Assembly (NCBI RefSeq): GCF_022627955.1
Contig: NZ_JABXGD010000005.1
Span: 248,001 to 312,000, forward strand
DNA length: 64,000 nt
Source: Microbacterium sp. C5A9
Lineage (GTDB): Bacteria; Actinomycetota; Actinomycetes; Actinomycetales; Microbacteriaceae
Direction of reading: 5' to 3'
Shown here: positions 1 to 5,259 of the stretch, one piece after another
Layout: each line of letters begins with the position of its first letter
How positions within the stretch are numbered: position 1 is the stretch's first letter
Position numbers and translations under genes: made by a program
Notes under the pieces: model-generated
Told to the model about the DNA's origin: nothing
Database searches by the model: none
Seen by the model: only the letters and a program-made list of their open reading frames with translations

Positions 1-248
1 GGCAGTACGACTCGCTCGGACGTGATGCGGATGACGAGGTCGCGGCGCTGCTCGACGAGTTCGATCGTGGACTCGACGGCGTCTCGGCACTCGAGGCGTC
101 GCGGCGGGTCACGGCCGTCGAGGCGCAGCTGCGCCGCATCGCGACGGTCGGCAAGCTGTACGGGCGCGACTTCGATGACGTCATTGCGCTGAAGTACCTG
201 CATCAGCGCTACACCGCGTACGTGCGCTGGCAGGAGCTGCGCGGGTGA
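1..248 (+). CDS. 3' end of a probable MoxR-type AAA ATPase (partial)
   Basis: Only the last 81 codons are inside the window (reading frame starts at base 3, TGA at 246-248). The visible tail is helical and charged and carries no diagnostic motif, so the protein cannot be identified from its own sequence. The assignment rests on context: it is translationally coupled (GTGA overlap) to a cluster containing a vWA protein, and MoxR-family ATPases are the usual upstream partners of such vWA proteins. The 5' part with Walker A/B motifs would lie before base 1. It could instead be another helical protein of the same operon. Confidence 0.5.
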   Translation, partial: QYDSLGRDADDEVAALLDEFDRGLDGVSALEASRRVTAVEAQLRRIATVGKLYGRDFDDVIALKYLHQRYTAYVRWQELRG

Positions 249-937
249 ATCGCCTGCCCGTGCAGCTGGCGAACGCGCCGGCCCCGTTCGCCCCCGCGGC
301 GCTCCCGGACTTCTCGTCCGTGGGGCTCGACACAGCCCTCGCGGCGAGGTCGGTGTCGCAGGCGCACGGCGACGCCGAGCTGTTCACCCGGGCGCTCGCC
401 GCAGGGGTCGCGGCGGATGCGGCATCCCGCGACGACCGTGACCGGGCGCTCGACCTCGTCGCGATCGCCGGATGGCGCGCCGGCGCGCTCGGCCTGCGTG
501 CCGATGCACTGACCAGGCTCGCCGCGCTGCCGACCGCCGAGACGCGCGTGGCGGCGGCAGCCGTGCTCGGAATCGGCGTCGACCAGCTCGACGTCTTCAT
601 ACGGCGCCAGGGGACGGACCGTTTCTGGTGGCCGGGCCGTGCCGATCAGCGAGGATACGTGCTGGCCGTCGGCGGGTTCCGCGGCATCGGCGGTGCGTGG
701 ATCCGTCCGCCCGAGCGCGTGGAGCGCCTGGCCGACCCCGGCGCCTTCGCCTTCCTCGTCGGAGGCGTCTGGTGGCGTCTCGACGCCGATGTGTGGGGCT
801 CGCGACTCGCCGTGCTCGCAGAGGAGCCGGCCACGGCACTCGCGAGCGGTGAGCGCGTGACGGTGCAGGATGGCGTGACGGTGGTGATCGGCCCCGACAC
901 GCACCTCGCGTGGGTGCACGTGCGGGAGGCCGCGTGA
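245..937 (+). CDS. Conserved 230-aa protein of the ATPase/vWA cluster, function unknown
   Basis: Starts with GTG inside the GTGA that ends the upstream gene, so the two are translationally coupled; its own stop overlaps the next start in the same way. The N-terminal half (about residues 1-115) is Ala/Leu/Arg-rich and probably helical. The C-terminal half is richer in Trp, Gly and aromatics, with an FWWPGR stretch near residue 127 and a GGVWWRLD segment near 178, suggesting a compact beta-containing domain. There is no signal peptide or membrane segment. I do not recognise the family. Its position between a putative MoxR ATPase and a vWA protein suggests an adaptor or substrate subunit, which is inference only. 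Confidence 0.75.
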   Translation: MNRLPVQLANAPAPFAPAALPDFSSVGLDTALAARSVSQAHGDAELFTRALAAGVAADAASRDDRDRALDLVAIAGWRAGALGLRADALTRLAALPTAETRVAAAAVLGIGVDQLDVFIRRQGTDRFWWPGRADQRGYVLAVGGFRGIGGAWIRPPERVERLADPGAFAFLVGGVWWRLDADVWGSRLAVLAEEPATALASGERVTVQDGVTVVIGPDTHLAWVHVREAA

Positions 938-2829
938 GCGCGGAGCCCGAGCAGCGCGCGCAGCCGGCGCCGGAGACGGTGCCGTTGAGCGATGAGGCGC
1001 GAGCAGCCTGGGAGCGGGCGCTCGCCCTGTGGCGCGTGCGTCTCGACGACCCCCGGATGCACCCGGGTGCCGCCGCCCGGCACGGGGCGCCCGCCTGGTT
1101 CCGCTTCCCGCCCTCGGTCACCGTGGATCCGCACTACCTCGCCGAACGAGGACTCGCCGACGAGCTGTGGAGCATGTTCGCGCACGAGATCGGTCACCAC
1201 GTGCTCGCCCCCAGCACCCGCATCGACGCGCTGAAGATCGACCACCAGATGGCCAGGGCGATCATGACCGTGTCGCCTCATCGCGACGCCGGCGACGGGG
1301 CGCGGCGGCTCGGCAATCTGTGGAGCGATCTGCTCGTGAACACCCGTCTCGCGCAGCTGCAGCGCGCCGAGGCCGGAGGCTCTTCCACCCCGACGCGCGA
1401 TCTGGGCATCGTCCGGCTCGGACGTGCGCTGTATCCCGCGCCCGCCGACAGCGCCGACCGTCTCTGGTGGGTCTACTGCCGTGCGTACGAGCTGCTGTGG
1501 CAGCTGCCGCAGGGCACTCTGTGCGCGCCTGAGCCGCCGGCTCGTCCGGTCGCCAGGCCCGTGGCTCAACGGCCGGTCCCGATGAGTGAGATCCCCGAGG
1601 AACACCGCGAGAAGGAGCGGCTGCTGCGCGAGGCCCGTGCCGAGCGCGAGCGCGTCGCCGCGGAGCTCGCGGGGGCGACCGCCACGAATCCACCGGTCGA
1701 CGCGGCCCTGGTCGCCGACGCCGTGCGCACGTTCGGCACCGACCCGGTGTCGGGAGCCGCGCTGTTCGGAGTGATCGCGGCACCGTATCTCGCCGAGCAG
1801 GACGCCGCCGGTGGCTGGCCCCTCGAGCCTCCCGTCGGGTGCGGCGTCGACGACCGGCCCGCGACCGCCGCGGAACTCGGTCGCCTCCTCGCCGATCAGC
1901 GACTGCGCGGCGATCTGCCGCGGCATCCGGGCACGGTGCGCGACAGCAACGACAGCGTCGATCCCGATGACGGAATCGACGGGGAGAAGAAGAGCGCCGG
2001 GCAACATCTCACCCTCGCACGCACACTGCAGCTGTACCGCGACAGTGGGAAGGATGCCGTCGTCGCCGCGTGGTACCGCACCGAGGCCTCCGCGTGGGTG
2101 CGGCCGTACACCCGGCCCGCGCCGTCGATCCCGACCGGGGGCATCCCCGGGCCGCTCGAGCTGTGGGAGGTCGGCGACGCCCTCGGCGACATCGACTGGC
2201 CCGTCACGATGCGCTCGGGCGCGGTGATCCCCGGGGTGACCACGCGGCGCCGCTCCGAACTCGACGACGAGCCGCTCGTGCGGGAGACGAGTCTCGAGCT
2301 CGATCTCTACATCGACTCCTCTGGTTCGATGACTCATCCGCATCGCGGCTCGCCCGCCGTGCTGGCAGGCACGATCCTCGCGCTGTCGATCCTGCGCGGC
2401 GGCGGACGCGTGCGGGTCACGAGCTTCTCGGGCACCGGCGAGGTCGCGGGGATGCCGCGGTTCGGGCGCGATCCGGAGGAGATCATCGCGGCGATCTCGC
2501 TGTTCTTCGGCCGGTCGACGTCGTTCCCGCTCGACCTGTACGCCGCCCGGTATGCGAACCTCCCGCCGGCGGACGACGACACCCAGCGGCACGTGGTCGT
2601 GCTCTCCGACGACGGTCTCGTCTCGATGTTCGGGGTCGGCAACGAGCCCTACGCGGGCGTCGCCCGCGCGGTTCGCGCGGTGCTCACCACCGGTACGCTC
2701 GTGCTCATGGATCCCCGTCGCCAGGTCGCCCAGCTCGCCGAGCGGGACGGGTACGACGTGGTCTATCTGCAGACGATGGCCGATGCTCCCGCGGCATGCG
2801 CGGCCCTGGCGGCGACGCTGCATGGCTGA
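934..2829 (+). CDS. Zincin-like metallopeptidase / vWA domain protein
   Basis: 631 aa from a GTG that overlaps the preceding stop (GTGA). Residues 84-88 read HEIGH, a HExxH zinc-protease motif, and a later LWSDLLVN segment (about 130-137) could supply the third metal ligand, as in the metallopeptidase-like domain found fused to vWA domains (DUF2201 type). The C-terminal third is a von Willebrand A domain: the MIDAS motif DSSGS lies at residues 461-465 and a second acidic strand (VLSDDG) follows. vWA proteins of this kind usually act with MoxR ATPases as metal-dependent chaperone or assembly factors. Residues 215-240 form a charged probable coiled coil. Cytoplasmic; no signal peptide. Whether the peptidase site is active is unknown. 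Confidence 0.85.
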   Translation: MSAEPEQRAQPAPETVPLSDEARAAWERALALWRVRLDDPRMHPGAAARHGAPAWFRFPPSVTVDPHYLAERGLADELWSMFAHEIGHHVLAPSTRIDALKIDHQMARAIMTVSPHRDAGDGARRLGNLWSDLLVNTRLAQLQRAEAGGSSTPTRDLGIVRLGRALYPAPADSADRLWWVYCRAYELLWQLPQGTLCAPEPPARPVARPVAQRPVPMSEIPEEHREKERLLREARAERERVAAELAGATATNPPVDAALVADAVRTFGTDPVSGAALFGVIAAPYLAEQDAAGGWPLEPPVGCGVDDRPATAAELGRLLADQRLRGDLPRHPGTVRDSNDSVDPDDGIDGEKKSAGQHLTLARTLQLYRDSGKDAVVAAWYRTEASAWVRPYTRPAPSIPTGGIPGPLELWEVGDALGDIDWPVTMRSGAVIPGVTTRRRSELDDEPLVRETSLELDLYIDSSGSMTHPHRGSPAVLAGTILALSILRGGGRVRVTSFSGTGEVAGMPRFGRDPEEIIAAISLFFGRSTSFPLDLYAARYANLPPADDDTQRHVVVLSDDGLVSMFGVGNEPYAGVARAVRAVLTTGTLVLMDPRRQVAQLAERDGYDVVYLQTMADAPAACAALAATLHG

Positions 2830-3430
2830 GACCGAGGCGCTGCTCGCAGCCTGGAGCGAGAGATCGGGTGGAGAGGCCGAGGCCTGGGCGCGTGCGAGGA
2901 CGGGACCGTCGCTGGAATCGGTCGCCGCGCGGATCTCCCGCGTCCCGCAGGAGTTCCTCGACGAGCGGGTTTCGCTCCGGGCGCTCGCCGGAGACATCGT
3001 CGGCGGGCCGATCGCCGCGCAGCGGTTCGACGACGACCCGCGGGTGCGCCGAGGAGCCGGCATCGCGCTCTGGCTCGTCGCCAGCGAGGGAGTCATCGAA
3101 CCCCTCGAACCCGCGCTCGCGCACGGACGGACCGCACTCGCCGTCGATGCGCTGGCGCTCCGGGTGGCACCCGTCGCCGATCCCGCCGCCTGGACCTCCG
3201 ACGACGAGCGCCGCATCGAGGCGGCGCGCACCTTCCTGCTCTGGTGCGGGTACCTTCCCGCGGGGGAGGATGCGGCGACGGCCGCGTCGCTCCTCGCCGC
3301 GTGCGACTCGCTCGCGCGCGACCGTGCGCTCGCCGACGCCTACGAGGGTCACCGCCATCGCGCCGAGATCGCCCGCAAGCTCGACGAGGCGCGCCGCAGA
3401 GAGGCGGCGGCGCGGTACTCCAGTGAGTGA
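2822..3430 (+). CDS. Helical 202-aa protein of the vWA cluster
   Basis: The ATG lies 5 nt inside the end of the vWA gene and the gene ends in GTGAGTGA, which also holds the next start, so it is coupled on both sides. The sequence is almost entirely Ala/Arg/Leu helix, suggestive of HEAT-like repeats, and ends in a charged helix rich in Glu/Lys/Arg (last 35 residues). No catalytic motif, signal peptide or membrane segment is visible. I do not recognise the family. Tight coupling implies it is made in fixed ratio with the vWA protein and may be a structural partner. Confidence 0.75.
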   Translation: MAETEALLAAWSERSGGEAEAWARARTGPSLESVAARISRVPQEFLDERVSLRALAGDIVGGPIAAQRFDDDPRVRRGAGIALWLVASEGVIEPLEPALAHGRTALAVDALALRVAPVADPAAWTSDDERRIEAARTFLLWCGYLPAGEDAATAASLLAACDSLARDRALADAYEGHRHRAEIARKLDEARRREAAARYSSE

Positions 3431-4802
3431 CGCTCGCACGGCGGCCGATCCCGATCTGCTCGGGGGACTCGCGCTCGCCGAGTACGCGCCCGGCGAGGCG
3501 GCGGTGCTGAGCGATGCCGAACGCTGGCCGACCCTCGATCCGGCGGGTGCTGCTCGCCTGGCGCGATGGCGCACCCACCCCGACGCACCGCAGTGGACGC
3601 ATGCGACCGGCGATCGCCTGACCGCTGAGCAGGCCGAGCGGGTGAGGCATCCGCTGCCCCTCGACGGCTGGATCGCCGAGCACCTCGACGCCGCCCGGCG
3701 CACGCTGCGCTATCGCGGCATGCCCGCACACGCCGTGCTCGACGACTTTCCCACGATCGCCCGGCGCGACCTCGTCGACGACCTGGCAGCATTCGTGCCG
3801 CTCGACGCCGACCTCTCCCGCATGCTGCACGGCACCAGCTCCGGCTCGACCGGCGCGGCGCTGCTGATCCCCGACGACGTCGAGGAGGTGGCGCGCGGCT
3901 TCCACCTGCTCGTGGCGCTCGCCGCATCGGCGGGAGTCCCGATCGTCGCGGAGGGCGAGCGCATGGCCGTGGCCAACCTCGTGTTCCAGCGCCAGGCCTT
4001 CACCTACGTCTCGGTCGTCTCGAGCTTCGCCCAGCGCGCGATGTCCCGGCTCAACCTGCATCCGTCGGCGTGGCCCGGACCCGACGCCCGTGAGCGCTTC
4101 CTCGCCGACGCCGACCCGCAGATCCTGAGCGGACACCCCACGAGCCTCGCCGAGCTGCTCGACGCGGGACTCGACGCCGTGCTGCATCCCCGGGTCGTGT
4201 TCTCGGGGGCCATGGCCCTGTCCGGGCCACTGCGGGCGCGGATCGAGGCGGCGTTCGACTGCCCGGTGTTCGACGTGTACGGCCTGCACGAGACGCGGCC
4301 CATCGCGGTGCGCGTCGATGACGGGCCTTTCCGGGTGCTCGACCGCCGCGTGCACGTCGAGGTGCTCGATCCCCACCGCGACGTCGCCGTCCCCGAGGGG
4401 GAGATGGGGGAGATCGTCGTGACCGCGGGGGAGAACCCCCTGCTGCCGCTCGTGCGCTACCGCACCGGCGACCACGGGCGGCTCGTCACCCTCGACGACG
4501 GAGCGATCGGCATCGCCGACCTGGAGGGGCGGGAGAACACGCGCTTCCGTGCCGACGACGGTGCGCTCGTGCCCTGCGTCGAACTCACGCAGCAGCTGCA
4601 GGCGCACGGTGCCGAGGGGTGGTCGGTCCGTCAGGGGCCCGACGGCCGGGTCCTCGCCGTGATCGCGCGAGGCGACGAGGCCGGCGCCCGCGCCGCGCTC
4701 GCCGCCCTGCTCGGCGAGCCGGTCGAGCTGCGGAGGGTCGCCCGGGTGAGCGATCTCGGCGAGGGCAAGCCCCGGCGCTACCGCAGCTGCGTACCCGACT
4801 GA
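3423..4802 (+). CDS. PaaK-like AMP-forming ligase / adenylate-forming enzyme
   Basis: 459 aa from a GTG that overlaps the previous stop codon. It has the landmarks of the acyl-adenylate family in the PaaK/CapK arrangement: a Ser/Thr/Gly phosphate loop TSSGSTG (138-144), an aromatic-acid-type YGLHET (286-291, in place of the usual YG-TE) and RYRTGD (345-350), where the Asp normally contacts the AMP ribose. A C-terminal subdomain follows. Family members activate a carboxylate with ATP and usually pass it to CoA or an amine. The substrate is not predictable. It is the last gene of the coupled cluster; such a ligase beside MoxR/vWA genes suggests covalent modification of a protein or small molecule, which is inference. 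Confidence 0.8.
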   Translation: MSDARTAADPDLLGGLALAEYAPGEAAVLSDAERWPTLDPAGAARLARWRTHPDAPQWTHATGDRLTAEQAERVRHPLPLDGWIAEHLDAARRTLRYRGMPAHAVLDDFPTIARRDLVDDLAAFVPLDADLSRMLHGTSSGSTGAALLIPDDVEEVARGFHLLVALAASAGVPIVAEGERMAVANLVFQRQAFTYVSVVSSFAQRAMSRLNLHPSAWPGPDARERFLADADPQILSGHPTSLAELLDAGLDAVLHPRVVFSGAMALSGPLRARIEAAFDCPVFDVYGLHETRPIAVRVDDGPFRVLDRRVHVEVLDPHRDVAVPEGEMGEIVVTAGENPLLPLVRYRTGDHGRLVTLDDGAIGIADLEGRENTRFRADDGALVPCVELTQQLQAHGAEGWSVRQGPDGRVLAVIARGDEAGARAALAALLGEPVELRRVARVSDLGEGKPRRYRSCVPD

Positions 4803-4857: not shown

Positions 4858-5259
4858 ATGAGCGGACTGATCCCCTACCTGCTGTTCCCCGGCAACGCCG
4901 CGGAGGCGCTCGAGCACTACCGGTCGGTCTTCGGCGGTGAGCTGCAGACACTCGACTACGCCACCGCGGGGCGGCACGACGGGCCGGGGGACTCCATCGC
5001 GCACGGGCAGCTGTCCGGCGCCGTCGAGCTGGCCGGAGCGGATGCCGGGGCCGACGACGACGCGGTGCAGATGAGCGGCATGTTCCTGTCGCTGCTCGGC
5101 ACGGCGGACGCCACGACGCTGACGAGCTGGTTCGATCGGCTGTCGTCAGGCGGCCGCGTGATCGATGCTCTGCAGAAGCGGCCGTGGGGCGACTACGACG
5201 GGACGCTCGTCGACCGCTACGGCATCCGCTGGCTCATCGGATTCCACGACGAGGACTGA
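4858..5259 (+). CDS. VOC-superfamily (PhnB/glyoxalase-like) protein
   Basis: 133 aa with the two beta-alpha-beta-beta-beta modules of the vicinal oxygen chelate fold: the N-terminal PYLLFPGNAAEAL segment and the FFGG-like VFGGEL near residue 24 are typical of PhnB-like members, and the C-terminal WGDYDGTLVDRYGIRW segment matches the second module. Length is normal for the family. These proteins bind metal or small ligands, and many have no assigned reaction. The gene is monocistronic, with its own leaderless promoter, and converges on the aminotransferase gene downstream. Confidence 0.9.
   Translation: MSGLIPYLLFPGNAAEALEHYRSVFGGELQTLDYATAGRHDGPGDSIAHGQLSGAVELAGADAGADDDAVQMSGMFLSLLGTADATTLTSWFDRLSSGGRVIDALQKRPWGDYDGTLVDRYGIRWLIGFHDED

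Follow-up and report, generated by a model that had tools for sequence, protein, structure and literature searches.

A MoxR-vWA gene cassette with a PaaK-like ligase in Microbacterium sp. C5A9 and its association with pnuC and nadR

What would a MoxR-type ATPase, a protein joining a zincin-like part to a von Willebrand factor A (vWA) domain, a predicted PaaK-like ligase and two small proteins of no recognized family do together? The question is raised by the first 4802 positions of a 64,000-nucleotide stretch of Microbacterium sp. C5A9 (hereafter the window; contig NZ_JABXGD010000005.1, positions 248,001 to 312,000, designated G000:C41:248001-312000), where five genes, here named A to E, form a compact cassette whose locus, taken with its upstream flank, is designated L006. 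MoxR-vWA machines are widespread, and the clients of most of them are not known. Because seven genes overlap when the adjoining pnuC and nadR are counted, the core is strictly conserved, and nadR co-occurs with the cassette near-obligately even where the two are unlinked, we favor, tentatively and with a probability of about 0.4, the reading that A to E make up a remodelling machine of the MoxR-vWA kind, which has its own adenylate-forming ligase and serves the branch that leads from nicotinamide riboside to nicotinamide adenine dinucleotide (NAD). The genome pattern points to a metabolic branch and to a ligase with fixed partners, in culturable bacteria, so the function is directly testable.

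Overlapping gene order and its conservation

The initial annotation described five genes overlapping at every junction, and the open reading frames (ORFs) and the sequence bear this out, though its gene list stopped short, as two more overlapping genes, pnuC and nadR, lie upstream (Table 1). In the window, the A/B and B/C junctions are GTGA overlaps, the C/D junction is an 8-bp overlap in which the ATG of D lies within C, and the D/E junction is another 8-bp overlap, GTGAGTGA; with the ATGA overlaps at pnuC/nadR and nadR/A, all six junctions of pnuC-nadR-A-B-C-D-E overlap in the window's genome. One transcript with coupled translation of the cassette is therefore likely, while production in a fixed ratio, as had been proposed, is at most suggested, since overlap indicates translational coupling only. 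Across the loci, with start sites assigned heuristically, overlaps of 4 bases were observed at A/B in 18 of 20 cases and at B/C in 17 of 21, an overlap of 8 bases at C/D in 16 of 26, and overlaps of 8 and 4 bases at D/E in 10 and 5 of 24, respectively.

The order A-B-C-D-E was kept in all 26 loci examined in detail, comprising the window's own, nine from named genomes, fifteen from family genomes and that of G559, of which 25 belong to Microbacteriaceae and one to a distant actinobacterial class; because it is kept in every one of them, this constancy is far beyond chance, and the ligase gene stands beside the vWA gene throughout, as had been anticipated for relatives. The nine named-genome loci, all from Microbacteriaceae, were obtained by a scan based on patterns, whose reach is limited to close relatives, and the closest relative found was Microbacterium sp. 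UFMG61, with C 90% identical over the best segment. A second genome of the genus of G559, G798, likewise carries the cassette, and its B, which is outside the B profile, matches that profile at 5e-33. For L058, L059 and L064, B was recognized from its position and shared invariant residues with no direct search match, and the profile check of the L064 protein is circular, L064 being in the profile. In L006 and L031 the stretch ends within E, and the frame seems to be broken in A of L027 and in E of L056, through sequencing error or real decay.

At an E-value of 0.001 or below, C was detected in 16 of 398 family genomes, in one of 296 class genomes (the window's own), in two (G559 and G798) of the 66 surveyed from the class of G559 and in 14 of 396 phylum genomes, the last consisting of the window's own, the cassette-bearing G559 and twelve from family f22 that match C in the vWA part only. 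D is strongly present in 31 of 295 genomes of the window's genus; weak D matches in G1163, G1084 and G164 (E-values of 1.8e-4 to 2.7e-4), of which that in G1084 resembles a nucleotidyltransferase on reading, were removed, reducing the count from 34 to 31.

The family and genus surveys reveal a patchy distribution, which would agree with a conflict (defence) system like the MoxR-vWA ternary systems, in which NadR would refill NAD, and MoxR-vWA couples do form several proposed conflict systems in the accessible part of PMC7159879. However, the one match in PADLOC, a weak one to GajB (0.003), covered 20 residues surrounding the P-loop of A, and B, C, D, E and NadR had none. No variable effector was seen, all five proteins being conserved in the aligned loci. 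Plasmid searches, tried with C and D, found neither, and phage searches, tried with C and A, gave no significant sequence match (three phage matches with E-values of 4 to 10 were treated as chance). The conflict-system idea of the initial annotation thus found little support, and we regard it as improbable.

Co-occurrence of the cassette with pnuC and nadR

The association with pnuC and nadR, which the initial annotation did not contain, is the only functional clue found. Both genes lie directly upstream of A in 17 of the 26 loci, with a gap between nadR and A of -4 to 23 bases. The PnuC protein scores above the cut-off of TIGR01528 (90.2 against 42.45 bits), and its neighbor matches TIGR01526 over residues 4-308 (1.8e-47; 162 bits, where the equivalog cut-off is 341) and AAA_28 of Pfam (8e-28); judging from these profiles, the latter gene is NadR-like, with both the nicotinamide mononucleotide (NMN) adenylyltransferase and the riboside kinase domains matched. 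The Walker A motif of the kinase reads GAESTG(S/T)TT, with Ser/Thr in place of Lys, in 19 of 19 Microbacteriaceae rows, whether or not the cassette is present, and the Lys is retained only in the f31 proteins of G559 and G798, which puts the kinase activity of the Microbacteriaceae proteins in doubt.

For the window's genus, where D alone represents the cassette, nadR (E-value ≤ 1e-30) was found in 31 of 295 genomes, that is, in 30 of the 31 D carriers and in one of the 264 others; the Fisher value of 9e-39 for this association, like a second one of 9e-14, ignores ancestry and is descriptive, and both counts are assumed to be drawn from the same 295 genomes. The exception among the others, G1247, has no D and a nadR of the group that is not linked to the cassette. 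Outside this genus, all 17 cassette genomes have nadR (all E-values ≤ 1e-46), adjacent to the cassette in seven and elsewhere in ten. Among the nine unlinked loci read, a set that leaves G313 outside, pnuC stands beside nadR in six, lies one gene off in two (G559 and G798) and was not called in G222. A sample of 229 family genomes, assumed to lie inside the 398 above, contained 16 with a nadR match (E-value ≤ 1e-20), ten of them cassette carriers; the six remaining are G019 and G194, in each of which pnuC adjoins nadR, and G023, G037, G097 and G168, with partial matches. The dependence is one-sided, in that the cassette implies nadR and nadR does not imply the cassette, as expected if the client or substrate is NadR, PnuC or their product.

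Shared ancestry or habitat could also bring NadR and the cassette together with no functional link, and it must be weighed that the window's genus carries them as one block, making its counts non-independent, and that independent lineages are few. The nadR tree (21 rows, holding six of the ten unlinked genes) nevertheless revealed that four unlinked genes group with those of G019 and G1247 (97/96), that twelve linked genes group with that of G194 (90/93) and that the two f31 genes stand apart. The cassette is thus found with three separate nadR groups, and the separation of linked from unlinked nadR indicates that the two were not merely inherited together as one block; furthermore, nadR is rare among family non-carriers (6 of 219, including four partial matches). 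We consider an association through ancestry or habitat alone quite unlikely. As the nadR of G194 falls in the cassette-linked group, G194 appears to have lost the cassette. Lost de novo NAD synthesis was also considered as the cause of nadR and was rejected in view of NadA, which is kept in four of five cassette genomes (G167 lacks it) and in two of two non-carriers.

Proteins of the cassette and proposed mechanism

Extension of the sequence in the 5′ direction showed Walker A (GGPGRGKT), Walker B (IIDEYNR) and sensor 1 (TAND) motifs in the first gene, and Pfam matched AAA_lid_2 above its cut-off (2.6e-8) and AAA_3 at 9.5e-6 (26 bits, one short of its cut-off of 27); on these motifs and matches A is a MoxR AAA+ ATPase, in agreement with the initial annotation, whose descriptions of the third and last genes and of the two small proteins stood equally well. 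In C, residues H84, E85, G87, H88 and H89 of the HEIGHH motif are invariant in 24 of 24 aligned rows, and so is the metal ion-dependent adhesion site (MIDAS) set of D461, S463, S465, T529, S558 and D559, which begins with DSSGS and in which T529 is assigned as the MIDAS threonine by its position. The similarly invariant N128, D132 and N136 are candidate third zinc ligands of the N-terminal part, a predicted zincin-like HExxH domain and putative metallopeptidase. Pfam matched Peptidase_M48 (best 0.004) and VWA_2 (best 0.032) weakly, each in 10 of 24 members. When the model of C (mean pLDDT 77) was compared with known structures, the best scores were obtained with MDN1-MIDAS/NLE1-UBL (UBL, ubiquitin-like; Z 15.5, root-mean-square deviation 4.0, 199 aligned), followed by Rea1-MIDAS/UBL (Z 14.7 and 14.4) and NorD (Z 13.8, root-mean-square deviation 5.4, 207 aligned), NorD also being the top Foldseek match (E-value 3.1e-4); ordinary vWA domains lie within 1 to 2 Z of these values, so rank alone says little, and as vWA matches filled the fold searches the zincin part was barely probed.

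Another MoxR-vWA pair was observed in the family f22 loci L065-L070 and L072-L074, which hold a different MoxR (459 to 494 aa) followed by a vWA protein (505 to 529 aa), as at L066:5813-9739, and then, in seven of the nine loci with genes called (none was called in L071), by a gene for a 281-aa protein. In L066 the vWA protein has YQLLH at the HExxH position, so that its zincin part looks dead, and Pfam recognized nothing in the 281-aa protein. E, PnuC and NadR were not matched within the f22 stretches fetched.

The window's E carries SSGSTG, YGLHET, YRTGD and a C-terminal EGKPRRY, and over 24 rows (S/T)SG and YRTxD are present in all and GKPRR(Y/F) in 23. Its profile matches the PaaK structures 2y4o and 2y27 of the PDB (6.6e-17 to 2y4o), and E is predicted to be a PaaK-like adenylate-forming ligase acting on a carboxylate. 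Against the equivalog of phenylacetate-CoA ligase PaaK (TIGR02155) it scores 44.6 bits, below the cut-off of 646.3, and its closest NCBIfam model is DVU1553_fam_AMP (1.7e-21, below cut-off), whose members we take to adjoin molybdenum-enzyme genes. This nearest model would suit a chaperone of the NorQD/CoxDE type, which would insert a cofactor or metal into an enzyme encoded elsewhere, with E supplying an activated cofactor group and the NadR linkage being incidental; the likeness of the vWA domain of C to NorD points the same way, since NorQD inserts iron according to the accessible part of PMC13036017. The co-occurrence of nadR with the cassette where the two are unlinked argues against such an incidental linkage, and we hold this explanation to be credible though unlikely. 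The neighbor genes of the loci were compared against the window's own neighbors only, so a recurring metalloenzyme gene may lie among them.

Neither B nor D matches a Pfam or NCBIfam family, B giving nothing better than an E-value of 0.1. B consists of a helical N-terminal part and a beta C-terminal part, with G143, G144, F145, G147, G150, W177, D182 and G185 invariant in 23 aligned rows. Its predicted structure is confident (pLDDT 91) and found no Foldseek match at E-values up to 0.001; the best Z, 6.2, was to propellers over about 75 residues, which is below the informative level, and no fold was assigned.

The constant C-terminus of D was also absent from the initial annotation. The final residue is Glu, immediately before the stop codon, in 55 of 55 loci, a number that probably includes duplicate strains, since the junctions of L032/L097, L033/L094 and L034/L091 look identical, and D of G798 has the same terminal Glu. 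In the 26-row comparison, counted after removal of A of L027 and E of L056 (broken frames), B of L056 (misplaced start) and E of L006 and L031 (truncated), D alone among A to E has no residue past its last strongly conserved column (26 of 26); the C-terminus of A is almost fixed (5 to 6 residues past its last conserved column), B, C and E run on for 3 to 65 residues, and the last residues of these four proteins vary. The terminal Glu is kept both with a 4-base overlap (L049-L051) and with none (L061, L062 and L064), so it is not imposed by gene overlap. Such a fixed free carboxylate would suit, in descending order, a MIDAS ligand, an ATPase contact or a ligase substrate; in the accessible parts of the respective papers, the Rea1-MIDAS is completed by a Glu of its ligand (PMC6624252) and the C-terminus of NorD contacts NorQ (PMC13036017).

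The last of these roles would lead to protein tagging, in which E would adenylate the C-terminal carboxylate of D, D would then be linked to either a target or a small molecule, with processing of the product by the zincin part of C. The unextended Glu of D, the position of D next to a gene for a predicted carboxylate-activating enzyme with its motifs kept, and the protease-like motif in C are consistent with this. However, PaaK-like enzymes, as far as known, act on small acids, D, having no Pfam match, reveals no likeness to ubiquitin-like or Pup proteins, and its tail could just as well serve as a MIDAS ligand or touch A in the manner of NorD and NorQ. Tagging of this kind is doubtful in our view; a never-changing last residue beside a carboxylate-activating enzyme offers a sharp and cheap test.

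Under the favored reading of a machine serving the riboside-to-NAD branch, PnuC would import nicotinamide riboside and the NadR-like protein would make NMN or NAD. Going by their families, A would form the usual hexameric MoxR ring and use ATP to drive movement of C's vWA domain, and the MIDAS metal of C would hold a partner through an acidic residue, as NorQD and Rea1/MDN1 do; with less certainty, this residue may be the free C-terminal Glu of D, which would dock D on C. B and the zincin part of C would shape or recognize the client. Since MoxR-vWA pairs usually adjoin the genes of their clients, the client might be NadR or PnuC, or an enzyme using their product, and E might activate, for the same client, a carboxylate of the riboside/NAD branch or of the complex itself. 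In the accessible part of PMC13036017, NorQD is described as remodelling through twisting. In a more specific version, which we find hard to credit, the seven genes would make and install (or recycle) a pyridine-nucleotide-derived group, with PnuC and NadR supplying the nucleotide, E activating either its acid form or the Glu of D, D acting as carrier or tag, and the MoxR/zincin-vWA machine loading the group into a client enzyme or stripping it off.

Several observations weigh against the favored reading. G1117 carries D and has no nadR match, in an assembly of 580 contigs that is 87% complete, and G643 and G653, of the genus of G559, have no C match. Conversely, pnuC and nadR occur with no cassette match in G019 (L174), G194 (L175) and G1247 (L176), which means that NadR can do without the machine. 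In g78, g49 and f31, nadR lies outside the operon, and in g78 and g49 both the cassette and nadR may be genus-level traits, so that independent events would be few; the nadR background was measured in the window's genus and the family only. The retention of NadA in four of five cassette genomes indicates that NAD supply alone is not the reason for the association. Finally, E of L064 has no AMP-binding match from Pfam, yet it matches the window's E at 7e-44; it has KVVPY at the GKPRR(Y/F) site, with the Lys unaligned, TSGTAS for SSGSTG and LSLTET for YGLHET, and its activity is less sure.

Table 1. Positions of the cassette genes, their main motifs and the two upstream genes. Plain numbers are window positions.
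Feature	Position	Strand	Basis or remark
A, C-terminal 81 codons of MoxR AAA+ ATPase	1..248	+	ORFs, upstream sequence, Pfam
A, whole gene, 531 aa	G000:C41:246653-248248 = L006:14653-16248		1348 bases precede the window
B, 230 aa, no known family	245..937	+	ORF, alignment, folding
C, 631 aa, predicted N-terminal HExxH domain and C-terminal vWA	934..2829	+	ORF, alignment, folding
HEIGHH zinc motif of C, residues H84-H89	1183..1200	+	sequence, alignment
MIDAS motif DSSGS of C, residues D461-S465	2314..2328	+	sequence, alignment
D, 202 aa, no known family	2822..3430	+	tail EAAARYSSE, invariant terminal Glu
E, 459 aa, predicted PaaK-like adenylate-forming ligase	3423..4802	+	profile and motif matches
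pnuC	L006:12978-13589		directly upstream of nadR
nadR	L006:13586-14656		directly upstream of A

Comparison with known systems and the downstream neighbor

The cassette shares with the NorQ/NorD, CbbQ/CbbO and CoxD/CoxE pairs a MoxR AAA+ protein with a vWA partner, to which it adds the HExxH domain on C, the partners B and D, the ligase E and the upstream pnuC-nadR. As far as PMC7159879 (Kaur et al. 2020) is accessible, the VMAP, iSTAND, FtsH and beta-propeller ternary conflict systems likewise combine a MoxR-vWA core with further conserved partners; in contrast to them, no variable effectors were seen here and Pfam recognized none of their third components, B and D having no Pfam family and C none strongly, with Pfam used in place of the profiles of that paper. 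In the accessible main text of PMC7159879, no word starting with 'adenylat' or 'AMP-ligase' was found. The accessible part of PMC7824862 describes, in group 2.2 jumbo phages, a vWA co-chaperone fused to an N-terminal metallopeptidase with a MoxR gene adjacent, as in the cassette, but proposes that pair for virion assembly and mentions there neither a ligase nor NadR.

E shares the core ANL motifs and the C-terminal Lys with the PaaK-like phenylacetate-CoA ligases and the DVU_1553-family AMP ligases, and differs from them in a longer N-terminus, a C-terminal part with no significant match, scores far below the NCBIfam cut-offs and its fixed place in a MoxR-vWA operon. No description of a MoxR-vWA system with a PaaK-like ligase or NadR was found in the open-licence literature, where a co-mention of NadR and MoxR was unrelated, NadR appearing only in the reference list. 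MoxR-vWA systems with a fused metallopeptidase and ternary MoxR-vWA systems are thus already on record, whereas the association with a ligase and NadR appears new.

On the 3′ side of the cassette, a small gene of the VOC family (glyoxalase/YjdN-like) lies at window positions 4858-5259. The same gene was observed 3′ of the cassette in L026-L030, five of the nine loci from named genomes, while the contig of L031 stops before that point; it was not seen in the remaining loci compared and is probably a plain neighbor.

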